Shown piece by piece: positions 5,164 through 20,339 of a stretch of 33,730 nt of DNA. The stretch spans positions 1 to 33,730 of the forward strand of contig ONBN01000022.1 of NCBI GenBank assembly GCA_900316115.1, written 5' to 3'. Position numbers and translations under genes: made by a program. Within the stretch, counting starts at the first letter, position 1, and the number at the start of each line of letters is the position of its first letter. The notes beneath the pieces were generated by a model that was not told where the DNA came from, did not search any database, and saw only the letters and a program-made list of their open reading frames with translations. Source of the DNA: an uncultured Eubacteriales bacterium (GTDB lineage Bacteria > Bacillota > Clostridia > Lachnospirales > Lachnospiraceae).

Positions 5164-5191
5164 TTGATTTTTGCTTGAAAATTGCTATCAT
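5164..5191 (+). promoter_or_regulatory. Promoter of the cobalamin riboswitch transcript
   Basis: TTGATT (5164-5169) is followed by 16 bases and TATCAT (5186-5191). Transcription would start around 5198, just before the first conserved bases of the cobalamin aptamer, which fits well. Confidence 0.6.
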
Positions 5192-5199
5192 ATGAGATG

Positions 5200-5385
5200 A
5201 ATATATATGTTTTCAGTGCCTACGCAGATTTTCTGTGAAGGGTAAAAGGGAATCAGGTGAAAATCCTGAGCGATCCGGTCACTGTAAGCAAGGAGCAATG
5301 CCAGTAATGCCATTGGACTTAAGGTCTGAGAAGGCGGCAAAGCGATGAACTGCAAGCCAGGAAACCTGCTGGAAATATCTGATGA
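5200..5385 (+). promoter_or_regulatory. Cobalamin (B12) riboswitch aptamer
   Basis: The conserved cobalamin aptamer elements appear in order. A GTGCC entry is at 5216-5220. GGGAATCAGGTGAAAATCC, a perfect match to the family core, is at about 5249-5267 and is followed by TGAGC. GGTCACTGTAAG is at about 5277-5288. A variable arm follows, then GGCGGCAAAGCGATGAAC at about 5333-5350, and the 3' core AAGCCAGGAAACCTGCTGG at about 5354-5372. Riboswitches of this class bind adenosylcobalamin or related corrinoids and normally switch off downstream genes when B12 is plentiful. The target here is the large secreted protein at 5656, with a terminator between. No other gene lies between aptamer and target. 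Confidence 0.95.
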
Positions 5386-5459
5386 AAAGCTTCCGATGAA
5401 AGCACTTTCATTCAAATAATCAGATCAAAAGTGGCGGAGTGTTTTTATACTCGGACACT

Positions 5460-5504
5460 GGTATTTTTGTGCTGTAAACAAATCCCCGTTGCAGCCTGAA
5501 TACC
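5460..5504 (+). other. Structured hairpin between aptamer and terminator
   Basis: GGTATT (5460-5465) pairs with AATACC (5499-5504). Inside this, GCTGTAAAC pairs with GTTGCAGC with one bulged A around an AAATCCCC loop. Together they make a two-step hairpin of about 45 bases in the leader. It probably belongs to the riboswitch expression platform, but its alternative pairing partner was not identified. Confidence 0.45.
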
Positions 5505-5529
5505 AAAGAGAACGATTAAGGATTGAAGG

Positions 5530-5566
5530 AAGTCTGTTTTCCAAGGAAAGCAGGCTTTTTTATTTT
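5530..5566 (+). terminator. Riboswitch-controlled intrinsic terminator
   Basis: GTCTGTTTTC (5532-5541) pairs with GAAAGCAGGC (5546-5555) over 10 base pairs, with a CAAG loop and flanking AA/TT pairing. The run TTTTTTATTTT follows. It sits 150 bases after the aptamer and 90 bases before the start codon, the expected place for transcriptional control by the upstream cobalamin riboswitch. Confidence 0.88.
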
Positions 5567-5655
5567 GCAGAAAATTACTACGTAATATTCCGGCAAAAAT
5601 GCGTTCAAAGCACAGAAACGTGTATATTTCATAACATTCAAAGGAGGAAGTAGCA

Positions 5656-8600
5656 ATGAGGAAAAAGTCAAATGCGTTTCTGGCACTTTTGCTGACAGGA
5701 GCAATGACCGTAACATCTGTATCTCCTGCTTTTGCTGCTGAAGAATTTTCAGCAGATGCAGATGTACAGGCTGCCTGGGATGTGACTGAGGATGAGCCGG
5801 CCGCTGAAGCATCCGATGTGCAGGATGTGGAGGAATTTGGAGAGGCCGGGGATGTAGAAGATGTATTTACCAGCGGCGAGGAAGTTTCTGACTCAGATAC
5901 AGTGGATGAGTCTGTGGAACTGACTGATGGGGATACAGAGGAATACGTAGAGGATGATCTTCTTCTGGCAGACAGCTCTGAAGAAAAATATCAGGACGGA
6001 ACTTATACACCAGAGTCCTTTACATTCCAGGGAGGATCAGGAAAAGCAACGATTACCTGCCCGAAAGTAACCGTTACAAGAGGAAAGGCAACAGGAACTA
6101 TCGTATTTTCCAGCAGCAGCTATACAAAGCTGGTTGTAGATGGTGATGAATACCTGCCGATCACAGGTACAGAATATACAGGCTCTGTTTTTGAGGTTCC
6201 GGTAGTTCTTAACCAGGATATGCAGATCACAGGAACAACAGTAGCAATGACAGCTGCTCATGATATTACCTATACTATCCATATTAAGCTGGATATTCCT
6301 ATGGTAACACCTGCTCCGGACAGACTGGAGGATGGTACATATGAAGCTGCTGTAAAAGCAGACAGCGGATTTCCGGCAGAAGCCTGCACACTGCTTGTAA
6401 AGGACGGAGAGATCGATGCAGTTGTCACATTGAAAAACGGGGATTATGACAGACTGTACGTAGGGGATGCTCTGGATGCAGTGAATGAAAAGGATGATAA
6501 GCTGATCGCTTACAGACCGTCCGATGATGGTTCAAAGCATATCTTCTGGCCTTTGGCTGTGGATAAGCTGGATACCCTGTTCCAGGTAGCCGCTCGCAAA
6601 ACAGACAAGACCTGGACAGACCATTATGTGAAGATCCTTTCTTCCTCTGTAACAAAGGTGAGTGATGAAGTTCTGGCACCGGATCAGGCAGCAGAGGCAG
6701 CAAAATTCCTTTACAGGAATTATGTGGATGATGTGATCTCAACCACAAATGGTGTTACAAAAGATGGAAGCTCCTATAATGTGGCATATTATAACAGCTA
6801 TAAAAGTACTGTTTCCAGCATCATCCTGAAACGGCCAGATGTGAAAACATATAAAAGCGGATGGTTCTTCTCAGACTGGGGTATTTTCAAGTCTACTGTA
6901 AAACAGGAACCTGCAACAATTTTGACGAGGGGTTATGCTCTGGATATGACAAAGAGAACCCAGGAGCAGCAGGTAACTGCCACGTTGAAGCTGTATGATC
7001 CATCTGTAGAGGATGTAGCCATTAACGATGACAGTGCACAGGCTCTGGCTGAGTATACCTATAATTTGGTGCTTGCAGCAAAGCCGGATACCTGCCAGGT
7101 AACTTTCCGTGCAGTAAACAGCAAGACAGGTGAAGTCATCCCGGATGCACAGATCACAGTAAAAGACAATACTACAAAAGAAGATGTGACAGGTACTGAC
7201 GGAAGTTATGAGCTGAAAGCCGGACAGAAATATACTGTACAGGCACAGTGCGATGGCTATATTGCAGTCGGTACAAAAGGAGTTAAAACTGCATCAGCTA
7301 CCTTTACAGCAGCTTTTGATGAAACCTATGATCTTTCCCTGACTGCAGATGCAGACAGCAAACATAAGGTCACATTTAAGGTGGTTGATGCAGATGGTAA
7401 TGTAGTACCGGATGCAGTGCTTACTGTAACAGGGGAAACTCCGGCAGAGGATGGAAGCTATACATTATGGGATAACTGCACATATTTCTATGGTGTAACT
7501 GCTGAAGGCTATCAGGTAGTAAAATCTAAAATTATCAAACCGTTAGAAGACCAGGAGGTTCTTGTAACCCTTACAGCACTGAAGAACTATCAGGCTACCA
7601 TTAAGGTTCGTGCAAAATCCGGACATCTGGCAGTTGTAAATCCAAAGGTTGTTTCTGTTACCTATAAGAAAAACGGAGAGACGCTTACACTTGATCCATC
7701 TGAGGATGGTACATATCCAATGGTAGAAACTGTAGCATATACTTATACTTATGATGCAGATAACTACCAGAGTGCATCTGCCACATGGACTGCAACCGGA
7801 ACAGAAGGACCGGTTGAACTGGAAGGTGTATTAAGCAATGAAACTATGAAAGCCCTTCTTGAGGATGCCATTGCAACTGCAAAAACACTTTATGAAGAAA
7901 TGACAGAAGGTGATGGAGCAGGACAGTGGGAAGCAGGAAGCAAAGAAACCTTAGATGCAGCTATCAAAGCAGCAGAAGAGGTTTATGCAAATGAAGAGGC
8001 AACAGATACTGAATATAAAACAGCAAAGGATACACTTCTGTCTGCTGTTTCCAGTGTGAGCCAGAAAGAAAATGCAGAGAGCATAAATATTACAGTCATC
8101 GTAAACAAAGCACCAGGGGAAGCGCCTGTAAAAATGTCCATGAAGGTGACAGCAGAGGATGCTCAGTCCGTTACCCTTCCATCCAACAGAAAAGACAATT
8201 ACTCTAAGGAGAGTGACCTGGGAAAACGTGCGACAGTGATCGATGCACTGGTAGATCTGCACAAGGAACTGTTTGGAGAAGACTATCTTGCAAATCCTGT
8301 CAACTATCTGATGTGTGGTTTGAAAGGTGCAGGAACCGGATATCTTCTTGGACAGAAGAGCTTTAATAACTTTGTTGGATTCCGTGTAAACGGAAAATAT
8401 GTGGCAAACGATCCAAGAATGTGCAGACTGAAAGACGGGGATGTACTTTCCGTATTTTCTGCAACAGCAAAAGCAAATCCTGCATATCTGCAGTTTGAGC
8501 AGCAGGAGATTACGGCAAACCAGAATGAGGAATTTACCCTGACTCTTACAGCTGACTCCTATTACATGGATTCCGATATCGGCAGAACAGTAGGTAAGAA

Positions 8601-9795
8601 TGAATTTACACCTGCTGAGGGTTATGATATCACACTTGCAAATGCTGAAACAGGCGAAGAAGTAACAGGCGAAGCAAAAACAGATGCACAGGGTAAGGTA
8701 AGCTTTAAGGTTGCTACACCTGGCACATATGTAGTAAAAACTGTAGCAAATGAAAATGTAGAAAGTATTGTACTGCCTTATGCCCAGATCCAGGTAAAAG
8801 AGGTTGCAAAGCCACCGGTAACTCTGGAGGATGGTACATACCTTGTAAAAGTGATCAATAACAACAAAATGTTTAATGTGATCAACAACAGTTGTGTCCT
8901 GAAAGTGGAAAACGGCAAGATGACCGCAGAGCTTTCCCTTCACGGAAAAGGCTATGATTACATGTATGCAGGAACAAAAGAAGAGGCAGAAGCAGCAGGT
9001 GAGTCTGCATGGTCCCACTATTACGAAAAAGAGGTAGTGGAAACATCCACAGGCGATAAGGGTCCATGGTATACTTACTCCCTGGCTATTTCCGCACTGG
9101 ATCAGGAAATCGTTCTGTCCAACCGTAATATCAGGGACAGCAAATGGTTTGACCGTCCGCTTACCTTCCTTACAGAAGGTATCCAGAAGATCGATACCCC
9201 GCAGCCGACTCCGACTGCAACACCAACCGTAGAGCCTACTGCTGCACCACAGCCTACTGCTGCACCGCAGCCAACAGAAGCACCAAAGCCTGAAACTGTG
9301 GCAGCCAGGAAACTGACTGTCAACACATCCACCATGTATCTGAAAGTAAAGAAATCTGATGCCATCGGTGTGATCGTTACTCCGTCCAATACAACAGATA
9401 AGGTAACTTACAAGTCCTCCAAGAAGTCTGTTGCAACGGTTGACAAGAACGGAAAAGTAACCGCTAAGAAAGCCGGAAAAGCTGTGATCACAGTTAAGGC
9501 AGGAAAGCTTACAAAGAAGGTAACTGTTGTTGTAGGAAAATCTGCAGCCAAAGTTACAAAGCTGAAATTTGCAAAGAAAACACTGACCCTGAAAAAGGGA
9601 AGTGTTCAGTTCCTGAAGGTTACTGTAAATCCGAAGAAAGCCACTACAGACCTGAAGTGGAAGACTTCAAACAAGAAGATCGTTACTGTAGATAAGAATG
9701 GAAAGATCACTGCTAAGAAAGCAGGAACAGCCAAGATCACAGTCAGCGCTGATGGTAAGACTGTATCCATTAAGATCAAAGTAAAATCAAAATAA
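5656..9795 (+). CDS. B12-riboswitch-controlled modular surface protein with transcobalamin-like (DUF4430) domain
   Basis: This 1379-residue secreted protein starts with a signal peptide (LALLLTGAMTVTS, cleavage near AFA-A at residue 27) and an acidic spacer (28-110). Three DGTY-initiated beta-rich modules follow at about 112-215, 222-340 and 1056-1180, the last two with YDRLYVG or YDYMYAG and W-x-R motifs; I think they are NEAT- or Tp47-domain-like, uncertainly. An unassigned segment covers about 345-475. Three carboxypeptidase-regulatory/Ig-like repeats span about 481-725, and a FIVAR-type helical module about 729-802. A DUF4430 domain lies at about 812-936 (VIDALVDL, CGLKGAGTGYLLG, NNFVGFRVNGKYV, LKDGDVLSVF). 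After a Pro/Thr linker (1181-1215) come two BIg2 Ig-like repeats (1217-1379). DUF4430 matches the C-terminal domain of animal transcobalamin/intrinsic factor. With the riboswitch this suggests corrinoid capture at the cell surface (inference). No LPXTG or C-terminal membrane helix is seen. AAGGAGG precedes the ATG. Confidence 0.85.
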   Translation: MRKKSNAFLALLLTGAMTVTSVSPAFAAEEFSADADVQAAWDVTEDEPAAEASDVQDVEEFGEAGDVEDVFTSGEEVSDSDTVDESVELTDGDTEEYVEDDLLLADSSEEKYQDGTYTPESFTFQGGSGKATITCPKVTVTRGKATGTIVFSSSSYTKLVVDGDEYLPITGTEYTGSVFEVPVVLNQDMQITGTTVAMTAAHDITYTIHIKLDIPMVTPAPDRLEDGTYEAAVKADSGFPAEACTLLVKDGEIDAVVTLKNGDYDRLYVGDALDAVNEKDDKLIAYRPSDDGSKHIFWPLAVDKLDTLFQVAARKTDKTWTDHYVKILSSSVTKVSDEVLAPDQAAEAAKFLYRNYVDDVISTTNGVTKDGSSYNVAYYNSYKSTVSSIILKRPDVKTYKSGWFFSDWGIFKSTVKQEPATILTRGYALDMTKRTQEQQVTATLKLYDPSVEDVAINDDSAQALAEYTYNLVLAAKPDTCQVTFRAVNSKTGEVIPDAQITVKDNTTKEDVTGTDGSYELKAGQKYTVQAQCDGYIAVGTKGVKTASATFTAAFDETYDLSLTADADSKHKVTFKVVDADGNVVPDAVLTVTGETPAEDGSYTLWDNCTYFYGVTAEGYQVVKSKIIKPLEDQEVLVTLTALKNYQATIKVRAKSGHLAVVNPKVVSVTYKKNGETLTLDPSEDGTYPMVETVAYTYTYDADNYQSASATWTATGTEGPVELEGVLSNETMKALLEDAIATAKTLYEEMTEGDGAGQWEAGSKETLDAAIKAAEEVYANEEATDTEYKTAKDTLLSAVSSVSQKENAESINITVIVNKAPGEAPVKMSMKVTAEDAQSVTLPSNRKDNYSKESDLGKRATVIDALVDLHKELFGEDYLANPVNYLMCGLKGAGTGYLLGQKSFNNFVGFRVNGKYVANDPRMCRLKDGDVLSVFSATAKANPAYLQFEQQEITANQNEEFTLTLTADSYYMDSDIGRTVGKNEFTPAEGYDITLANAETGEEVTGEAKTDAQGKVSFKVATPGTYVVKTVANENVESIVLPYAQIQVKEVAKPPVTLEDGTYLVKVINNNKMFNVINNSCVLKVENGKMTAELSLHGKGYDYMYAGTKEEAEAAGESAWSHYYEKEVVETSTGDKGPWYTYSLAISALDQEIVLSNRNIRDSKWFDRPLTFLTEGIQKIDTPQPTPTATPTVEPTAAPQPTAAPQPTEAPKPETVAARKLTVNTSTMYLKVKKSDAIGVIVTPSNTTDKVTYKSSKKSVATVDKNGKVTAKKAGKAVITVKAGKLTKKVTVVVGKSAAKVTKLKFAKKTLTLKKGSVQFLKVTVNPKKATTDLKWKTSNKKIVTVDKNGKITAKKAGTAKITVSADGKTVSIKIKVKSK

Positions 9796-9847
9796 AAAAA
9801 TTGCTGGGTACAATTAAATCAGAAATGTAAAAACAAAGAGATACGAG

Positions 9848-9892
9848 AATCCTCTGGAACCGGATGAGTAAAACCGGTTTCAGGGGATTTTT
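9848..9892 (+). terminator. Strong intrinsic terminator after the surface protein
   Basis: A 16-base-pair stem with a few G-T pairs is formed by AATCCTCTGGAACCGG (9848-9863) and CCGGTTTCAGGGGATT (9874-9889), with a 10-base loop and a TTTTT run. It isolates the B12-controlled gene from the iron transporter downstream. Confidence 0.92.
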
Positions 9893-9905
9893 GCATGTGA
9901 TGTAG

Positions 9906-9934
9906 TTGACAAAAGGCAGGGGGTGACATACACT
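9906..9934 (+). promoter_or_regulatory. Promoter of feoAB
   Basis: A consensus TTGACA (9906-9911) is followed by 17 bases and TACACT (9929-9934). The Fur-box-like palindrome begins 13 bases downstream of the -10 box, near the expected transcription start. Confidence 0.75.
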
Positions 9935-9946
9935 GAAAACCATAAA

Positions 9947-9961
9947 TGATAAAAATTATCA
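9947..9961 (+). promoter_or_regulatory. Fur box
   Basis: TGATAAAAATTATCA matches the Gram-positive 7-1-7 Fur consensus TGATAATNATTATCA with a single mismatch. It covers the probable +6 to +20 region of the feoAB promoter, so iron-loaded Fur would block transcription. The consensus is established knowledge; binding here is inferred. Confidence 0.8.
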
Positions 9962-9984
9962 ATTACGAAAAGAGGAAATGCCAT

Positions 9985-12330
9985 ATGACATTAAAGGACT
10001 TACCGATCGGGAAAACAGCTACTGTACAGTCTGTAGGGGGAGATGGGGCTTTACGGCAACATTTTCTGGATATGGGACTGATACCGCAGGCTGATGTGAC
10101 CATGGTAAAATATGCCCCTATGGGAGATCCTGTGGAACTGAGGATACATAGTTATGAACTTACATTGCGTCTGGCAGATGCCGAGAAGATCACGATTGAA
10201 CATGTGCGGGATGCAAAAGCTGTTCCTCCTGGAAAAAGAAAAGAACCTATTCCTCATCCTGGGCTGGGAGAAGGTGGCAGGTTTCACAGCAAAAAGGAAG
10301 AGACGCCGCTTCCGGAAAGTGAGAAGCTTACTTTTGCCCTTGTTGGTAACCAGAACTGTGGAAAAACGACTTTGTTCAATCAGCTGACAGGATCCAATCA
10401 GCATGTGGGTAATTTCCCCGGGGTGACAGTTGACCGGAAAGATGGTGTGATCCGGGGAAATGAGAATACACTTGTGACAGATCTTCCGGGGATTTATTCC
10501 ATGTCCCCATATTCCAGTGAGGAGATTGTAACAAGAAATTTTGTGTTGAATGAGCACCCAAAAGGAATCATCAATATTGTGGATGCAACCAACATAGAAC
10601 GAAATCTGTATCTTACCATGCAGCTGATGGAGTTAAATATTCCTATGGTTCTGGCTCTGAATATGATGGATGAGGTGCGGGAAAACGGAGGCTCCATTCT
10701 GGTCAATCAGATGGAAGAAATGCTGGGGATACCTGTAGTACCTATTTCTGCTGCCAAAAATGAAGGAATCAATGAATTGATCAGCCATGCCATTCATGTG
10801 GCAAAGTATCAGGAGAGACCCAGACGGATGGATTTTTGCGATGCAAACGAGGATGGAGGAGCCGTACACAGATGCCTTCATTCCGTAATGCACTTGATCG
10901 AGGATCATGCCCAGAGGGCACAGATACCACTTCGTTTTGCTGCAAGCAAACTGGCAGAAGGGGATCCGCTTATTCAGGATGGATTAAAGCTTGATGAGAA
11001 TGAAAAAGAGGCTCTTGAACATATCGTATCACAGATGGAAAGGGAAAGAGGCCTTGACAGGGCAGCTGCTATTGCCCATATGCGTTTTGACTTTATTGAA
11101 AATGTGTGTGACGAGACCGTTATAAGGCCAAGAGAAAGTAAGGAACATTTAAGAAGTGAAAAAATAGACAGGATCCTTACTGGCAGGTATACTGCAATTC
11201 CCTGCTTTGCCGGGATCATGGGACTTGTGTTCTGGCTTACCTTTGGTGTGATCGGTAAAGGCCTGTCAGATCTTCTGGAAATGGGTATTACGGGCCTGAC
11301 GGCTATGGCGGATCATGGCCTGGAGGCGTGGAATGTAAATAAAGTACTACATTCATTGATTATTGATGGCATATTCAATGGTGTTGGAAGTGTTTTAAGC
11401 TTTCTTCCTATTATCGTAACTCTGTTTCTGTTTTTATCGCTTTTGGAAGACAGTGGTTATATGGCAAGAGTTGCTTTTGTAATGGATAAGCTTCTACGGA
11501 AGATCGGTCTTTCCGGGCGGAGCATTGTGCCAATGCTGATCGGTTTTGGCTGTACAGTTCCGGGAGTAATGGCCAGCAGAACGCTGCCGTCGGAGCGTGA
11601 CCGTAAAATGACGATTCTCCTTACTCCTTTTATGAGCTGTTCTGCCAAGCTTCCGATTTATGCTTTCTTTGCTGCTGCCTTTTTTAAACAGTATGCAGCA
11701 CTGGTAATGGTTGTCCTGTATTTTGGGGGGATTTTTATAGGCATCCTGATGGCTCTGCTGTTTGGAAAAACTGTGTTCAAAGGGGAAGCAGTTCCCTTTG
11801 TAATGGAACTGCCCAACTACAGAATGCCAGGTGCCAAAAATGTAGGTCACCTTTTATGGGACAAAGCAAAAGATTTCCTGCAAAGAGCTTTTACAGTTAT
11901 TTTTGTTGCAACGATTGTCATATGGTTTTTGCAGACATTTGATCCTCATCTGAATCTGGTAACAGACTCAAAAAACAGTATCCTTGCAGTTGTTTCGGGT
12001 TATATCGCACCTGTGTTTGTACCGCTTGGGTTTGGTGACTGGAGGATTTCAACAGCGCTGATCACCGGTTTTATGGCGAAAGAAAGTGTAGTATCCACGT
12101 TATCCGTTCTTTTTGGAAAAGCAGTGTCACTTACAACGATCCTTACTCCCATCGGGGCAGCCAGCCTTCTTGCATTCTGTCTTTTATATACACCATGTGT
12201 GGCCGCCATAGCGTCTATAAAGAGGGAGCTTGGTGCGCGCTGGGCGGCAGGAGTGGTAATCGGACAGTGTGTGATTGCATGGATTGTAGCTTTTGCTGTA
12301 AGAATGGCTGGAATTTTCATTGGATTTTAA
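9985..12330 (+). CDS. feoB: Ferrous iron transporter, FeoA-FeoB fusion
   Basis: This 781-residue membrane protein imports Fe2+. Residues 1-75 form an SH3-like FeoA domain (LKDLPIGKTATVQSV, RQHFLDMGLIPQADVTM). After a charged linker the FeoB G domain begins at about 115, with G1 GNQNCGKTT (121-129), the FPGVTVDRKDG switch I segment, G3 DLPG (about 166), G4 NMMD (about 226-229) and a G5-like SAAKN. A helical insertion leads to the membrane domain (about 400-781) with the Gate motifs typical of FeoB (for example PMLIGFGCTVPGVMA and LTPFMSCSAKLPIYA). I use the ATG at 9985, preceded by AGAGGAAATGCCAT, because it starts exactly at FeoA; the upstream ATG at 9946 overlaps the Fur box. FeoA and FeoB are separate in many bacteria, and fusion is known in Clostridia. 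Regulation by Fur is indicated by the promoter. Confidence 0.96.
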   Translation: MTLKDLPIGKTATVQSVGGDGALRQHFLDMGLIPQADVTMVKYAPMGDPVELRIHSYELTLRLADAEKITIEHVRDAKAVPPGKRKEPIPHPGLGEGGRFHSKKEETPLPESEKLTFALVGNQNCGKTTLFNQLTGSNQHVGNFPGVTVDRKDGVIRGNENTLVTDLPGIYSMSPYSSEEIVTRNFVLNEHPKGIINIVDATNIERNLYLTMQLMELNIPMVLALNMMDEVRENGGSILVNQMEEMLGIPVVPISAAKNEGINELISHAIHVAKYQERPRRMDFCDANEDGGAVHRCLHSVMHLIEDHAQRAQIPLRFAASKLAEGDPLIQDGLKLDENEKEALEHIVSQMERERGLDRAAAIAHMRFDFIENVCDETVIRPRESKEHLRSEKIDRILTGRYTAIPCFAGIMGLVFWLTFGVIGKGLSDLLEMGITGLTAMADHGLEAWNVNKVLHSLIIDGIFNGVGSVLSFLPIIVTLFLFLSLLEDSGYMARVAFVMDKLLRKIGLSGRSIVPMLIGFGCTVPGVMASRTLPSERDRKMTILLTPFMSCSAKLPIYAFFAAAFFKQYAALVMVVLYFGGIFIGILMALLFGKTVFKGEAVPFVMELPNYRMPGAKNVGHLLWDKAKDFLQRAFTVIFVATIVIWFLQTFDPHLNLVTDSKNSILAVVSGYIAPVFVPLGFGDWRISTALITGFMAKESVVSTLSVLFGKAVSLTTILTPIGAASLLAFCLLYTPCVAAIASIKRELGARWAAGVVIGQCVIAWIVAFAVRMAGIFIGF

Positions 12331-14585: not shown

Positions 14586-14675
14586 GGTTGAATAACAGAC
14601 CGGGAAAATGTATAATGTGGTTCGTAAGACCGGAAGAGCCTGAGACTTTACCGGAGAATGAAGGGATATGATAGA

Positions 14676-15428
14676 ATGACATTAAAGGAAATACTGATGC
14701 AGGTTCAGAATGGTACACTTTCCCTGGATGATGCACAACGGATCTTAAAACAGGATGGATATAATGAAATGGATTATGCAAAGCTGGATACAGGACGCAA
14801 GGCCCGCACCGGATTTGCAGAGGTGGTATATTGCAGCAACAAGGCAGATGACCATCTGCTGAATATATACGAAAGGCTGTATCAGGAAGAGAGCGAGGTG
14901 CTTGGCACAAGAGCCAGTGAGAAGCAGTACCAGCTGGTGAAAGAAAGGCTTCCCCAGGTACAGTATGACCCTGTTTCCAGGATCCTGAAGATCGAGAAGC
15001 CGGATAAGCTTCATGAGGGCAGGGTTGCTGTGTGTACGGCTGGCACAGCAGATATTGCCGTAGCAGAAGAAGCGGCACAGACTGCAGAGTTTTTCGGAAC
15101 CTATGTGGACCGGATCTATGATGTTGGCGTCAGTGGGATGCACCGGCTTTTTTCAAGAATGGATACCATACAAAGAGCCAACTGCGTAGTTGCAGTAGCC
15201 GGGATGGAAGGCGCTCTTGCAAGCGTGATGGGAGGCCTGGTAAGCAGACCTGTGATCGCTGTTCCCACCTCTGTGGGATATGGTGCCAATTTTCATGGAC
15301 TGTCTGCACTTCTTACCATGATCAATTCCTGCGCCAACGGTATTGCAGTGGTCAATATTGATAATGGATACGGTGCAGGTTATCTGGCAACCCAGATCAA
15401 CAGGCTTGCCCTTGGAAAGGACAGGTAG
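14676..15428 (+). CDS. larB: Nickel pincer cofactor biosynthesis protein LarB
   Basis: This 250-residue protein matches LarB, the enzyme that carboxylates and hydrolyses nicotinic acid adenine dinucleotide in the first step of nickel-pincer nucleotide synthesis, the cofactor of lactate racemase LarA and related enzymes. The N-terminal helical part is at about 1-110. The PurE (AIR carboxylase)-like Rossmann part runs from about 110, with VAVCTAGTADIAVAEEA, YDVGVSGMHRL, VVAVAGMEGALASVMGG and VIAVPTSVGYGANFHGL. I prefer the ATG at 14676 because GAAGGGAT precedes it, whereas the ATG at 14658 has its GGAG only a few bases away. LarC, LarE and LarA are not in the window, so this is an isolated member. 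A terminator overlaps its stop codon. Confidence 0.93.
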   Translation: MTLKEILMQVQNGTLSLDDAQRILKQDGYNEMDYAKLDTGRKARTGFAEVVYCSNKADDHLLNIYERLYQEESEVLGTRASEKQYQLVKERLPQVQYDPVSRILKIEKPDKLHEGRVAVCTAGTADIAVAEEAAQTAEFFGTYVDRIYDVGVSGMHRLFSRMDTIQRANCVVAVAGMEGALASVMGGLVSRPVIAVPTSVGYGANFHGLSALLTMINSCANGIAVVNIDNGYGAGYLATQINRLALGKDR

Positions 15429-15445: not shown

Positions 15446-15474
15446 TTGCAACCAGTCTGATTATATGCTACAAT
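15446..15474 (+). promoter_or_regulatory. Promoter of the surface-polymer operon
   Basis: TTGCAA (15446-15451) is followed by 17 bases and TACAAT (15469-15474), directly after the larB terminator. The transcript would begin near 15481 with a small GGTTC-ACG-GAACC hairpin (15483-15495) at its 5' end. This is probably the main promoter for the roughly 14-kb run of genes to 29518. Confidence 0.8.
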
Positions 15475-15524
15475 ACATAGACGGTTCACGGAACCAAAAA
15501 AGACATAAGATGGAGCAAAGTAAA

Positions 15525-16301
15525 ATGAAGAAATACATCGACAATCTTATACAGTACAAATTTCTGTTAAGTGAGCTTGTAAAAAAAGGAATCAAGCTGA
15601 AATATCGGCGGTCATATCTTGGTATCGTGTGGTCCCTTCTGGAGCCGCTGCTTACCATGATCGTTCTTACCATTGTATTTGGTACTCTTTATGGCAATAC
15701 AGACAGGACATTTCCTGTATATATCCTGACAGGACGTCTGATCTACAGCTATTATTCCACAGCTACCAAATCAGCGTTGAAGTCCATACGTGCCAATTCA
15801 GCCATGATCAAGAAGGTATATGTGCCTAAGTACCTGTACCCCTTATCAACCGTTATTTTTAACTATATTATTTTCCTGATCTCCCTGATCGTGCTGGCAG
15901 CAGTAAGCGTTGTCCTTGGGATCAAGCCTACTATTTATCTGCTTCAGGCCCCCATCGCACTGATCCTTGTTCTGATCCTTTCCTATGGATGTGGGATGAT
16001 CCTTGCCACTATTGGCGTATTTTTCAGAGATATGGAGTATTTATGGTCTGTTGTCCTGATGATCATCATGTATACATGTGCCATCTTCTATTATCCTGAG
16101 AAGCTTCTGAAGAGTGGATGGTTCTGGATCCTGAAATACAATCCCCTTTACGGGATCATCAAGATCTTCAGGGATTCTGTTTTCGGAAAGCCTATCAATA
16201 TGCATTATCTGATGTATACAACAGCATTCAGTCTTTTATGCCTGGTAGTCGGCCTTGTATGCTTCAAGAAAAAGCAGGACGATTTTATTCTTCATATTTA
16301 A
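15525..16301 (+). CDS. Polysaccharide/teichoic acid ABC exporter permease (TagG/Wzm type)
   Basis: This 258-residue membrane protein has about six transmembrane segments and the ABC2-type permease signature. That includes the N-terminal amphipathic YKFLLSELVKKGIKLKYRRS and YLGIVWSLLEPLLTMIVLTI, typical of TagG, Wzm and RfbA exporters of lipid-linked surface polymers. It should pair with the ATPase that starts 20 bases downstream. An ATG at 15465 opens the same frame, but it lies inside the promoter. ATG 15510 lacks a ribosome site, whereas ATG 15525 follows GGAG by nine bases and begins MKKYIDN. It heads the surface-polymer operon. Confidence 0.92.
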   Translation: MKKYIDNLIQYKFLLSELVKKGIKLKYRRSYLGIVWSLLEPLLTMIVLTIVFGTLYGNTDRTFPVYILTGRLIYSYYSTATKSALKSIRANSAMIKKVYVPKYLYPLSTVIFNYIIFLISLIVLAAVSVVLGIKPTIYLLQAPIALILVLILSYGCGMILATIGVFFRDMEYLWSVVLMIIMYTCAIFYYPEKLLKSGWFWILKYNPLYGIIKIFRDSVFGKPINMHYLMYTTAFSLLCLVVGLVCFKKKQDDFILHI

Positions 16302-16321
16302 GAGGTAAGGAGTAAGAGAAG

Positions 16322-17065
16322 ATGAGTGATAAACCGGCGATCATTGTAGATCACGTAAGTATGAAATTTAACCTTAGCAAAGAAAAAGTAGACAGCCTTA
16401 AAGATTATGTCATAAAGATGATCAAGGGACAGATCCAGTATAATGAATTCTGGGCTCTTAAGGATGTTACATTTACTGTGAATAAAGGAGACCGTGTAGG
16501 AATTCTAGGACTGAACGGAGCTGGTAAGAGTACCCTTTTGAAGGTGATATCAGGAGTATTCAAACCTACAGAAGGAACTGTGACAAAGAACGGGAAGATC
16601 GTTCCACTTCTGGAATTGGGTGCAGGATTTGATCCCCAGTATACAGGCCAGGAGAATATTTTCCTGTACGGTGCAATGCTTGGATATTCCAAAGCCTTTA
16701 TCCAGGAGAAATATCAGGAGATCGTAGATTTCTCAGAACTGAAGAACTTTATGGATGTACCTGTGAAGAATTATTCTTCAGGTATGAAGTCCAGGCTTGG
16801 CTTTGCCATTGCTACAGTAGTATCCCCTAAGATCCTGATTCTGGATGAGGTGCTTTCTGTAGGTGATGCCAAGTTCCGCAAGAAAAGTGAGAATAAGATC
16901 TTAAGTATGTTTGATTCAGGAGTGACGGTGCTTTTTGTATCCCATTCCCTGGAGCAGGTAAAGCGTCTTTGCAATAAGGCCATTATCCTTGAAAAAGGAA
17001 AAGTGGTATCCTATGGGGATATTGACACGATTTCTGCACAGTATGAACAGATGATCGGAGGTTGA
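16322..17065 (+). CDS. Polysaccharide/teichoic acid ABC exporter ATPase (TagH/Wzt type)
   Basis: This 247-residue ATPase drives export of the polymer through the permease encoded just upstream. It has Walker A GLNGAGKST (about 63-71), the TagH/Wzt-type signature NYSSGMKSRLGFAIA (about 147-161), Walker B ILILDEVLSVGD (about 171-182) and the switch His in FVSHSLEQ. The protein ends shortly after the nucleotide-binding domain, so it lacks the C-terminal carbohydrate-binding domain of long Wzt proteins and the extension of Bacillus TagH. It may therefore export an undecaprenyl-linked polymer without recognising its end. AGGTAAGGAG and an AGAGAAG segment precede the ATG. Confidence 0.94.
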   Translation: MSDKPAIIVDHVSMKFNLSKEKVDSLKDYVIKMIKGQIQYNEFWALKDVTFTVNKGDRVGILGLNGAGKSTLLKVISGVFKPTEGTVTKNGKIVPLLELGAGFDPQYTGQENIFLYGAMLGYSKAFIQEKYQEIVDFSELKNFMDVPVKNYSSGMKSRLGFAIATVVSPKILILDEVLSVGDAKFRKKSENKILSMFDSGVTVLFVSHSLEQVKRLCNKAIILEKGKVVSYGDIDTISAQYEQMIGG

Positions 17066-17108
17066 TCAGAAGTTATTATCCGATCAGAGATCAATGTATG
17101 GAGGGGTT

Positions 17109-18203
17109 ATGGGAGAAGGATTAAAAAAAGAAGATTCTGCAGCATTAAAAGGGATTGCCATTCTGATGATGGTATTTCATCATTGCTATCGTACAGAGAA
17201 GAAGTTTGCAGGATATGAGATCCTTTTTACACCGTTTACAGCAGATCGTGTGATCAGTCTGGCCCTTTATATGAAAATCTGCGTCTGTATTTTTGCCTTT
17301 GTGTCAGGATACGGACTGATGTATGGATATTTGAGAAACCAGAATCCTGATAACCGGATTTCTGACAGCGCCTTTGTAAAAAGGCATCTGCTCAGTACCT
17401 GTTCAGGCTACTGGTTTCTTGTGGTTCCGGCATATCTTGTTTATGGGGCAAGGAATGGCTTTTCCTATGGCAAATGGGGTACTACTCTTTGGGAGAAATT
17501 CACCGGGATCCTGACAGATGCGCTGGGACTTTCTGAGATCCTTGGCACAAAAAGCGTAAACGGAGCCTGGTGGTATATGGGGGCAGCCATTACCTTTATT
17601 ATCCTGGTGCCGGTTCTTGGAAGGGTGATCTTAAAAATGGGAAGCCTTACCTGTATTGGCCTTGTTTTTCTTATCCCAAGGCTTTTGAATATTGGATTTC
17701 AGGGGGGCAGATCTCCATTAACCTTTTTAATGGCGCTTGTTCTGGGCATGGTATGCTGCCAGCAGGATATATTTACAAAATTTCATAACTGGGTTCCCAT
17801 TGGAAACAGATATGTGGGTGGCTTTCTGAAGTTTGTGCTGCTTACTGTTCTTGTTTTATGGGGCTATAAAAGCTACCGGCTTCTGCCATTTTCTTATTGC
17901 TGGGAATATCAGTTTGCTTTGATCCCGTTTATTCTGATCCTTTTTCTGAAAGAATATGTATTTCGGATTCCAGGCTTGAAAAGGCTGTTGGGATTCCTGG
18001 GTAAACATTCTTTGAATATCTGGCTTGTACATACCTTTGTGAGAGATTATCTGAAGTCATACCTGTGGTCCTTAAAGTATTTTGCACTTGTGCCTCTGGC
18101 AATCCTTCTGATCTCTCTGATTCTCAGTGTGGTGATCAATGCACTGAAGAAATATACCGGCTATGACGGCCTGATCAGGAAAATAAGCAGGAGTTTTGTA
18201 TGA
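17109..18203 (+). CDS. Membrane acyltransferase (acyltransferase 3 family)
   Basis: This 364-residue protein has about ten hydrophobic segments. Near the N-terminus it has the catalytic-type motif LKGIAILMMVFHHCYR (His about 24-25), as in OatA/PF01757 O-acyltransferases that move acyl groups, often acetyl, onto extracytoplasmic sugars. There is no C-terminal SGNH domain. GGAGGGG lies directly before the ATG at 17109; an in-frame ATG at 17094 has no such site. The 3' end overlaps the next gene by four bases (ATGA), showing translational coupling. In this cluster it probably decorates the surface polymer, but the acceptor and donor are not known. Confidence 0.85.
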   Translation: MGEGLKKEDSAALKGIAILMMVFHHCYRTEKKFAGYEILFTPFTADRVISLALYMKICVCIFAFVSGYGLMYGYLRNQNPDNRISDSAFVKRHLLSTCSGYWFLVVPAYLVYGARNGFSYGKWGTTLWEKFTGILTDALGLSEILGTKSVNGAWWYMGAAITFIILVPVLGRVILKMGSLTCIGLVFLIPRLLNIGFQGGRSPLTFLMALVLGMVCCQQDIFTKFHNWVPIGNRYVGGFLKFVLLTVLVLWGYKSYRLLPFSYCWEYQFALIPFILILFLKEYVFRIPGLKRLLGFLGKHSLNIWLVHTFVRDYLKSYLWSLKYFALVPLAILLISLILSVVINALKKYTGYDGLIRKISRSFV

Positions 18204-19297
18204 AAGTATTGCAGATCGGCATGGGGAATAACCCAGGCGGAGTGGAAGCCTTTGTAATGAATTATTACCGGCAGCTTTCTAAGAGAGGGATCCGGTTTGA
18301 TTTTGTATCCATGTATGGAGAGATTGCCTATCATCAGGAGATACTGTCTCTTGGGGGCAGGGTTTTTCTGGTGCCAAATGTAAAAAAAGATTATTTTGGT
18401 TATGTGAAAGCCATGAAAAAGATCCTGTCAGAGGGTAAGTATGATGTGGTGCATGTAAATATGCTTTCAGCAGCCAATATCCTTCCTCTTCGTCTGGCAA
18501 AAGAAGCGGGCGTGGGTAAGGTGATCGCACATTCCCACAATGCATCTGCACCGGGGATGTTACGCAGGATGATGGATCAGTGGAACCGGTCAAAGATCAG
18601 CCGGTATGCAGATGTGCTGGCAGCCTGTGGGGAAAAGGCAGGCAGATGGTTGTTTGGAGATCAGGCTTATGAACAGGGAAAAGTTACATTGCTTTCCAAT
18701 GCCATTGATGTGGACAGATTTTTATTTTCAGAAGAGAAAAGAAAGAAAGTCAGGGAAAGTCTGGAACTTACCGGCAGCTTTGTGATCGGCCATGTAGGAA
18801 GATTTCAGCTACAGAAGAATCATGAAAGGATCCTGGAAATCTTCAGGCAGATCCTGGAAACAGAACCGGATGCCAGACTGCTTTTGGTGGGAGAGGGAGA
18901 GCTTCTTCCAAGGATCCGTGAAAAAGCCTGTGAATATCAGATAGAGAAGCAGATCGTATTTGCAGGAGTTCGGTCAGACGTGGAAGACTGTCTTTGTGCT
19001 ATGGATGTGTTTCTTTTTCCTTCTCTTTTTGAGGGACTGCCCTTTACCCTTGTAGAAGCACAGGCAAATGGACTGTCCTGCGTGATCTCTGATAAGATTA
19101 CCAGGGAAGTGGTTCTGGACCAGGAAAAGGTGTGCTGTCTTGATCTTGAGAAAGACGATAAGATCTGGGCAGAAAAAGTGCTGTCATATAAAGAATACAA
19201 AAGGGAAGATCAAAAGAAAACAAAAGAAAGGCTTGTGGCTGCTCACTTTGATATACATAAAGAAGCAGACAGGCTTTTGGAACTGTACAGCCGCTGA
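18200..19297 (+). CDS. Glycosyltransferase family 4 (GT-B fold)
   Basis: This 365-residue soluble or membrane-associated enzyme transfers a sugar from a nucleotide donor. The N-terminal half begins MKVLQIGMGNNPGGVEAFVM, a glycine-rich acceptor-side loop like EpsF/WbpH-type enzymes. The C-terminal donor half has GHVGRFQLQKNHERI (about 195-209), LLLVGEGELLPRI and the GT4 retaining EX7E-type segment FPSLFEGLPFTLVEAQANG (about 275-293). The start overlaps the stop of the acyltransferase gene by four bases. It likely adds a sugar to the lipid-linked polymer at the cytoplasmic face. Donor and linkage cannot be told from sequence alone. Confidence 0.92.
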   Translation: MKVLQIGMGNNPGGVEAFVMNYYRQLSKRGIRFDFVSMYGEIAYHQEILSLGGRVFLVPNVKKDYFGYVKAMKKILSEGKYDVVHVNMLSAANILPLRLAKEAGVGKVIAHSHNASAPGMLRRMMDQWNRSKISRYADVLAACGEKAGRWLFGDQAYEQGKVTLLSNAIDVDRFLFSEEKRKKVRESLELTGSFVIGHVGRFQLQKNHERILEIFRQILETEPDARLLLVGEGELLPRIREKACEYQIEKQIVFAGVRSDVEDCLCAMDVFLFPSLFEGLPFTLVEAQANGLSCVISDKITREVVLDQEKVCCLDLEKDDKIWAEKVLSYKEYKREDQKKTKERLVAAHFDIHKEADRLLELYSR

Positions 19298-19346
19298 ATA
19301 AACAGGCTGTCTATATACGGCCTGGAAGCAGGAAGTGGGAGATCAG

Positions 19347-20339
19347 ATGGATAAAATAGATTTTGTGATCGCATGGGTAGATGGAAATGACCCTGCCTGG
19401 ATCGCACAGAGAAAAGAATATCAGCCTGATAAAAGGGATGATGACGGAGAGAGCCGTTACAGGGACTGGGAGAATCTTCAGTACTGGTTCCGTGGCGTGG
19501 AAAAGTTTGCCCCGTGGGTCAACAAGGTTTATTTTCTTACCTGGGGACATGTGCCTGCATGGCTTGATACCTCCAATCCAAAGCTGCAGATCGTAAGGCA
19601 TGAGGATTATATACCTGAGGATTATCTGCCTACCTTCAGCAGCCACCCGATTGAGATGAATATGCACAGGATCCAGGGGTTAAGTGAGCATTTCGTATAT
19701 TTTAATGATGATATGTTTCTGATCCGTCCGGTAGAGCCTGAGGACTTTTTTAAAAACGGGCTTCCAAGGGACTGCTGTATTGAAACAGCTCTGGCACAGG
19801 ATAATATAGATGATCCTTTTGCCCATATCCTGATGAATAATACAGCTCTTATCAATATGCATTTTAATAAAAAAGAAGTGATCCGCAAAAACTGGAAAAA
19901 GTGGTTCAGTCCTGCATACGGCAAGATGGTACTTCGGAATGTGCTGATGTATCCTTATCAGGAGTTTTCCGGATTTAAGTACACCCATATGCCAAGCCCA
20001 TTTCTGAAAAGTTATTTTGAGAAGCTGTGGCAGGCAGAAGGAGCAAGGCTTGATAAGCTGTGCCATAACCGTTTCCGCACAGCCTTTGATGTGAACCAGT
20101 ATGTGGTAAAACACTGGCAGTGCATGGAAGGTATGTATGAACCACAGTCCCCGGGAATCGGTCAGTTCTGTGTAATGGGCAGGGATGATGAAAAGCTTTT
20201 TGATACCATGGAGCATCAGTCTGCAAAAATGATCTGCATCAATGATGATGCAAGGCTGGAGGATTTCCAGGGAATGAAGCAGAAGGTGATCCAGGCCTTT
20301 GACCGGATTCTGCAGGAGAAATCTTCATTTGAAAAATAA
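19347..20339 (+). CDS. Stealth-family sugar-phosphate transferase
   Basis: This 330-residue protein carries the conserved Stealth blocks. CR1 is IDFVIAWVDGNDPAW at residues 3-17. CR2 is at about 40-125 (NLQYWFRGVEKFAPW, VYFLTWGHVPAWL, PTFSSHPIEMNMHRI, FVYFNDDMFL). A CR3-like block with HMPSPFLKSYFEKLW lies near 212-226, and a CR4-like CINDD near 301-305. Stealth proteins link hexose-1-phosphate units in capsules and are related to GlcNAc-1-phosphotransferase (family knowledge). The start is the ATG at 19347 after GGGAG; an in-frame GTG lies 12 bases upstream. Next to CDP-glycerol enzymes it suggests a polymer with sugar-phosphate as well as glycerol-phosphate units. Confidence 0.93.
   Translation: MDKIDFVIAWVDGNDPAWIAQRKEYQPDKRDDDGESRYRDWENLQYWFRGVEKFAPWVNKVYFLTWGHVPAWLDTSNPKLQIVRHEDYIPEDYLPTFSSHPIEMNMHRIQGLSEHFVYFNDDMFLIRPVEPEDFFKNGLPRDCCIETALAQDNIDDPFAHILMNNTALINMHFNKKEVIRKNWKKWFSPAYGKMVLRNVLMYPYQEFSGFKYTHMPSPFLKSYFEKLWQAEGARLDKLCHNRFRTAFDVNQYVVKHWQCMEGMYEPQSPGIGQFCVMGRDDEKLFDTMEHQSAKMICINDDARLEDFQGMKQKVIQAFDRILQEKSSFEK

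Follow-up and report, generated by a model that had tools for sequence, protein, structure and literature searches.

The gene described here occupies positions 5656-9795 of the forward strand of contig ONBN01000022.1 (GenBank assembly GCA_900316115.1; 33,730 nucleotides, the whole stretch analysed and hereafter the window), from an uncultured bacterium of the Lachnospiraceae, and lies behind a cobalamin riboswitch. Its product, P0001, probably belongs, as a large secreted component, to a corrinoid-capture system that is under riboswitch control and is built on NEAT-like domains. This reading is based on five observations: the riboswitch is kept in the orthologous loci, the NEAT-like modules are linked to riboswitches in other genomes, they are fused to partner proteins, their fold is that of NEAT domains by structure prediction, and most domains of one type carry a His-xxx-Tyr pattern. 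The features concerned are the following.

5164..5191, + strand: promoter-like site, TTGATT-16-TATCAT with TG ahead of the second hexamer (consensus match only)
5197..5387, + strand: cobalamin riboswitch aptamer (RF00174, 114 bits, model positions 1-189 of 189, E 4.3e-28)
5526..5561, + strand: T-run hairpin (z -3.8), probably the terminator that serves the riboswitch as expression platform
5656..9795, + strand: open reading frame of P0001, 1379 residues, export predicted
5656..5739, + strand: signal-peptide-like N-terminus, residues 1-28 (read by eye)
5989..6294, + strand: NEAT-like domain D1, residues 112-213, with His202-xxx-Tyr206
6319..6648, + strand: NEAT-like domain D2, residues 222-331
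8818..9183, + strand: NEAT-like domain D5, residues 1055-1176

The aptamer exceeds the RF00174 gathering score of 31.5 bits across the full length of the model, confirming the cobalamin riboswitch that a first-pass annotation of this DNA had placed ahead of the gene. The same annotation had proposed an exported protein of 1379 residues, which agrees with the open reading frame and with the start of the protein, judged by eye to resemble a signal peptide. The terminator that it described is supported by the hairpin with a T-run at 5526-5561, but a simple consensus terminator scan of the + strand did not list this hairpin. The promoter scan returned 2 sites against 1.6 expected, so the site at 5164 is weak as sole evidence. 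A second terminator-like hairpin with a T-run (9844..9893, + strand; -31 kcal/mol, z -8.1), also unlisted by the consensus scan, separates the gene from a FeoA-FeoB fusion gene, and for this reason the riboswitch likely precedes one gene alone, as had been suggested. The FeoA-FeoB gene (9946-12330) lies directly 3' of the giant gene and has a promoter-like site at 9906.

P0001 was found in three of the 64 Blautia genomes searched, namely that of the window (G000), G001 and G014, and in all three the riboswitch lies 209-320 bases upstream of the match. The G001 orthologue matches over residues 1-1379 (85%); in G014, residues 3-1054 and 1177-1378 are matched and the D5 stretch is apparently missing. 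In an alignment of the two orthologous loci, the aptamer and the rest of the upstream region were conserved. Among named records the nearest is that of Blautia glucerasea MSK.21.93, with 84% in the best segment and residues 1-1379 covered, and the assignment of the window to Blautia is based on it.

The three NEAT-like domains, which the first-pass annotation did not contain, provide the strongest link of P0001 to B12. In the 64 Blautia genomes a match was counted as linked when it followed a listed riboswitch at a distance of at most 8 kb. Among the matches listed, this was the case for 42/71 of the D1 type and 12/17 of the D5 type, for 1/47 of those with Big_2 repeats only, and not for the single D2-only match. 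The comparison of D1 and D5 types (54/88 of those listed) with Big_2 gave p 4e-13 by Fisher's test, a value made too small by the kinship of the genomes.

Domains of the D1 type occur in 75 of the 392 genomes of the order. For all 70 listed D1 matches outside Blautia, up to 6 kb of upstream sequence was taken, and a cobalamin-class riboswitch was found at 59 loci (18/20, 15/20, 18/20 and 8/10), one of them being of the adenosylcobalamin (AdoCbl) class RF01482. In all 59 cases the riboswitch and the D1 gene share a strand, and the domain follows the riboswitch; the frames in the strand list run from stop to stop, and a few of them overlap the riboswitch. Three of the 11 misses (L159, L175, L210) have less than 2 kb upstream, and eight are real misses with the full 6 kb (L151, L165, L169, L174, L179, L181, L193, L205). 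In a sample of 398 genomes from the phylum, D1 domains were present in 16, of which 13 are outside the order; there the riboswitch was found on the strand of the gene at 12 of 14 loci, and the two loci without it have about 1 kb of upstream sequence. Loci with Pfam-NEAT domains were treated in the same way as a control, and none of the 20 had a riboswitch. The control consisted of the best Pfam-NEAT match in each of 20 of 34 genomes (the best-scoring ones; the Blautia genome G017 was skipped); four of these loci have less than 3.5 kb upstream and one has 5.2 kb, and for several, situated within very long genes, the start of the gene may be farther away. Fisher's test of 59/70 against 0/20 gave p 1.7e-12, again too small because the genomes are related. 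That homologues would mostly be without cobalamin riboswitches, named with the first-pass annotation as a ground for refutation, is contradicted for the NEAT-like modules but applies to a set of short D1 proteins, considered below.

Two loci of this collection also carry AdoCbl-II riboswitches, at L267:3866-3945 (- strand) and L275:4976-5055 (+ strand), on the opposite strand to, and near, the cobalamin riboswitch of the D1 gene. This arrangement suggests divergent B12-controlled genes.

Structure prediction gave the NEAT beta-sandwich fold, and one-to-one profile-profile comparison with the Pfam-NEAT domains of the order gave E 6.4e-8 for the D1 type and 9e-9 for the D2/D5 type. The domains are called NEAT-like since the PF05031 gathering score of 32.8 was not reached: the stretch 1050-1180 of P0001 scored 14.6 bits, and the relative in L153 scored 31.6 bits (E 2.5e-7). 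Heme-binding NEAT domains bind iron through the first Tyr of a Tyr-xxx-Tyr motif, an example being YHHFY in 4h8p. Among 104 unique D1-type domains, the position matching this Tyr is occupied 92 times by His, 8 times by Tyr and 4 times by Lys, and it is flanked by Met at -4 and Tyr at +4 in all 104; the position was matched by eye and not by residue-level structure alignment. P0001 has the pattern His202-xxx-Tyr206 where the last strand of D1 begins in the model, and D1 is without the Tyr-xxx-Tyr motif. His as a cobalt ligand has a precedent in transcobalamin.

Four riboswitches above the Rfam threshold were found in the genome of the window, and three of them precede NEAT-like secreted proteins: that of the window and those on contigs C78 and C66. 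The C78 riboswitch is followed by genes for two secreted NEAT-like proteins of 582 and 869 residues, a Peripla_BP_2 protein and a FecCD permease, inside whose gene the contig stops. Behind the C66 riboswitch lie genes for a CbiK-family protein whose N-terminus resembles a signal peptide and for a NEAT-like protein of 186 residues, which the Pfam NEAT model matches weakly (E 0.0069). The fourth, on C23, lies about 1.7 kb before aldolase-like and aldehyde dehydrogenase-like genes (assigned by eye), with a minus-strand frame between. Weaker riboswitch matches occur on C41 and C104.

The same partners recur elsewhere. Genes resembling those for binding proteins, permeases and ATPases lie downstream in G001, G014 and G051; these were identified mostly by eye, with family-level assignment of the ATPase in G001 and of the permease in G014. 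A binding protein and a FecCD/ATP-binding cassette (ABC) importer are found in one regulon, as in Isd-type systems, on C78, with counterparts that include an ATPase gene in G001 and, judged by eye, in G014 and G051. D1-type and D5-type domains often occur within one protein, and fusions were found of CbiK with the D5 type (L164, 549 residues), of D1 with Peripla_BP_2 (L164, 499 residues, and L013) and of the D5 type, D1 and Peripla_BP_2 (L153). The most extensive one, L202:69-2891 (- strand), lies behind a cobalamin riboswitch and joins CbiK, both NEAT-like types and Peripla_BP_2 in 941 residues.

These observations are consistent with the following scheme. At low cellular B12 the riboswitch would let transcription pass the terminator, and P0001 would be exported and held at the surface by its Big_2 repeats. 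Binding of corrinoids (cobalamin, other cobamides or cobinamide) would fall to the NEAT-like domains, chiefly those of the His-bearing D1 type, in which the conserved His stands where heme-NEAT domains have their iron-ligand Tyr and is a candidate cobalt ligand. The corrinoid could then be relayed through the other NEAT-like proteins of the regulon and the secreted CbiK-like protein to the periplasmic-binding-protein/FecCD/ABC importer, much as Isd proteins hand over heme.

Several findings weigh against corrinoid capture. Heme and hemoglobin are the known ligands of NEAT domains, and each component family has heme-binding relatives, which makes heme or porphyrinoid uptake under B12 control the main rival. 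The nearest solved chain to the secreted CbiK-like proteins is the heme-binding FetB, with CbiK just behind; the C78 permease has HmuU as its nearest relative among PDB structures, and its best NCBIfam model, BtuC, scored 215 bits, under the cut-off of 334; a fusion of D1 with a binding protein gave a weak IsdE match (E 4.5e-6). No NEAT chain was retrieved when PDB sequences were searched with D1 profiles, and the D1-D2 model (predicted template modelling score, pTM, 0.49) is reliable for the single domains only. Of the three domains D1 alone bears the His, and the conserved Trp is followed by Thr in D2 and by Phe in D5; for lack of a His-type residue in these two, P0001 may bind a single corrinoid, through D1, and D2 and D5 may have other functions. 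The related genomes are non-independent samples. Furthermore, 13 of the 14 short D1 proteins listed in Blautia (frames of 174-203 residues, e.g. G046:C2:550181, G063:C36:136328 and G017:C1:3213157) have no listed riboswitch within 8 kb, and among the D1-only frames of 137-243 residues in the order, five of nine are without a riboswitch and four have one. Not all D1 domains are thus linked to B12.

On the rival reading, the NEAT/CbiK/ABC set would import heme or another porphyrinoid (sirohydrochlorin, cobalt-porphyrin, uroporphyrinoids) to feed corrin synthesis, which would account for its control by the B12 riboswitch, and the secreted CbiK-like protein would insert or remove metal outside the cell. 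Besides the heme-like affinities of the NEAT fold, the CbiK/FetB-like partner and the HmuU-like permease, this would agree with what PMC10913741, in the portion bearing on IhtB, says of this CbiK homologue, which is thought to strip iron from heme. In the genome of the window cbiD is present, and the bacterium may synthesise the corrin ring itself, a further point in favour of porphyrinoid import; corrinoid capture would then be salvage beside synthesis. We nevertheless consider porphyrinoid import the less probable reading: cobalamin riboswitches normally serve B12 genes, the Pfam-NEAT control loci were without riboswitches, and His has taken the place of the ligand Tyr in most D1 domains.

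The first-pass annotation had rested the link to B12 on another part of the protein, a DUF4430 segment at about residues 812-936, and its idea that this segment is the corrinoid-binding unit and the remainder scaffold now appears very improbable. Residues 811-941 gave no match to PF14478 at E<=10, nor did the whole of P0001 at E<=1, and direct profile-profile comparison of 811-941 with PF14478 gave a probability of only 52%. An iterated profile of the segment did reach PF14478 proteins in round 2 (L072, E 1.7e-5), by a link that passes through a single domain of L103, a bridging protein with E 0.098 in round 1. A kinship of 811-941 with DUF4430 is therefore possible, a lead and not proof. The Pfam scan of P0001 returned no alpha/alpha-barrel match and no CbiK domain, and matches to the central part (331-1050) outside the orthologues lay within 8 kb of a riboswitch in 0/10 of those listed; these ten matches represent five genes, some on short contigs. 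The argument from domain content via DUF4430 consequently fails for the most part, while the role that had been proposed, a secreted corrinoid-capture protein made at low B12, fits the riboswitch-linked homologous modules within and outside the order.

An ordinary adhesin-like surface protein, riboswitched for other reasons, for example to bind host glycans or proteins at low B12, is the least probable explanation. Adhesins often contain modules of the Big_2, CarboxypepD_reg-like and FIVAR-like kinds, and P0001 is a rare mosaic, given its presence in so few Blautia genomes. Across the phylum, however, the riboswitch-linked part is the NEAT-like domain with its transporter and chelatase partners, and the Big_2-only matches listed were almost never near a riboswitch.

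The remaining modules of P0001 are as follows.

6661..7080, + strand: segment unmatched in Pfam, residues 336-475, common to other giant Blautia proteins
7081..7860, + strand: CarboxypepD_reg-like beta-sandwich region, residues 476-735 (PF13620, E 4.7e-11)
7861..8085, + strand: FIVAR-like segment, residues 736-810 (E 0.0069, below cut-off)
8086..8478, + strand: possible remote DUF4430-like segment, residues 811-941 (iterated profile; without Pfam match)
8479..8805, + strand: Ig-like (immunoglobulin-like) beta-sandwich, residues 942-1050
9295..9783, + strand: two Big_2 Ig-like repeats, residues 1214-1376, behind a Pro/Thr-rich linker (PF02368, E 9.3e-16, two stretches)

PF13620 matched three stretches across the whole of P0001; residues 475-645 were matched and 646-735 gave weak matches only.

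Relatives of residues 331-1050 are found within giant proteins of Blautia clusters that also contain energy-coupling factor (ECF) genes, an alpha/alpha-barrel lipoprotein and PF14478 proteins, several of these identities having been assigned by eye. Of three such clusters scanned for riboswitches, two gave sub-threshold AdoCbl matches, of 40.4 and 36.5 bits against a cut-off of 50, which speaks for a binding role of the DUF4430-like segment, and the C41 cluster of the window's genome has an RF00174 match of 28.5 bits, under 31.5. As these relatives lie in B12-linked clusters, P0001 may draw its modules from two systems linked to B12, the link of the second being weak. The C41 cluster (L070, 5167-17527) comprises ECF-type genes, a Prenyltrans alpha/alpha-barrel lipoprotein-like protein and a PF14478 protein, behind a riboswitch-like match at C41:17590-17723; as a possible transcobalamin-like system of bacteria, this locus is more convincing than the gene of the window.

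With Isd-type NEAT proteins (IsdA/B/C/H, IsdX, Hbp2) the B12-linked set shares the NEAT fold, the presence of several NEAT domains per secreted protein and a binding protein and FecCD permease within the regulon. It differs in the cobalamin riboswitch, the CbiK-like partner, the proposed ligand and the His-xxx-Tyr of most D1 domains in place of Tyr-xxx-Tyr. CbiK, periplasmic CbiK-type chelatases and FetB/IhtB are related to the secreted CbiK-family proteins that share its riboswitch operons and fusions, but P0001 itself is without a CbiK domain. Transcobalamin and intrinsic factor would have in common with P0001 the possible remote DUF4430-like segment (PF14478); unlike transcobalamin, P0001 has neither an alpha/alpha-barrel nor a Pfam-level PF14478 match. 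BtuG and BtuH of Bacteroidetes resemble P0001 in the role proposed for it, that of catching B12 at the cell surface in the gut; unlike these lipoproteins, P0001 has no lipoprotein Cys after the signal peptide, its first Cys being residue 135.

Surface B12 binders of Bacteroidetes are described in the relevant parts of PMC8941943 and PMC6143338. The former, in its account of BtuH2, places Ig-like domains before the ligand-binding domain; its passages on Firmicutes treat cobamide acquisition there as less known and name three Firmicutes with predicted btuH homologues. In the open-access journal literature searched, no paper linking NEAT domains with corrinoids was found. NEAT-type surface capture is known; the regulation and the partners appear new, and the ligand is probably new.

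Elsewhere in the window, 14658-15428 encodes LarB, of nickel pincer cofactor synthesis (NCBIfam 295 bits, cut-off 175), and 15465-20339 contains teichoic-acid/polysaccharide-type ABC export genes together with genes for an acyltransferase, a glycosyltransferase and a Stealth-family protein.

Tentatively, NEAT domains could have been re-tooled across the Bacillota into a B12-riboswitched surface relay for corrinoids, with His for Tyr to coordinate cobalt and with a secreted CbiK-family protein and a fused binding protein leading to an ABC importer; P0001 would be an elaborate form of it that includes modules of a second, transcobalamin-like B12 system of these bacteria. Corrinoid binding by the NEAT-like domains, if it holds, would give a function to a widespread unannotated family and provide a new point at which to test how gut bacteria compete for B12 with one another and with their host; it would also add to the NEAT fold a second class of metal-tetrapyrrole ligand, with a single-residue difference, Tyr to His, available for testing.

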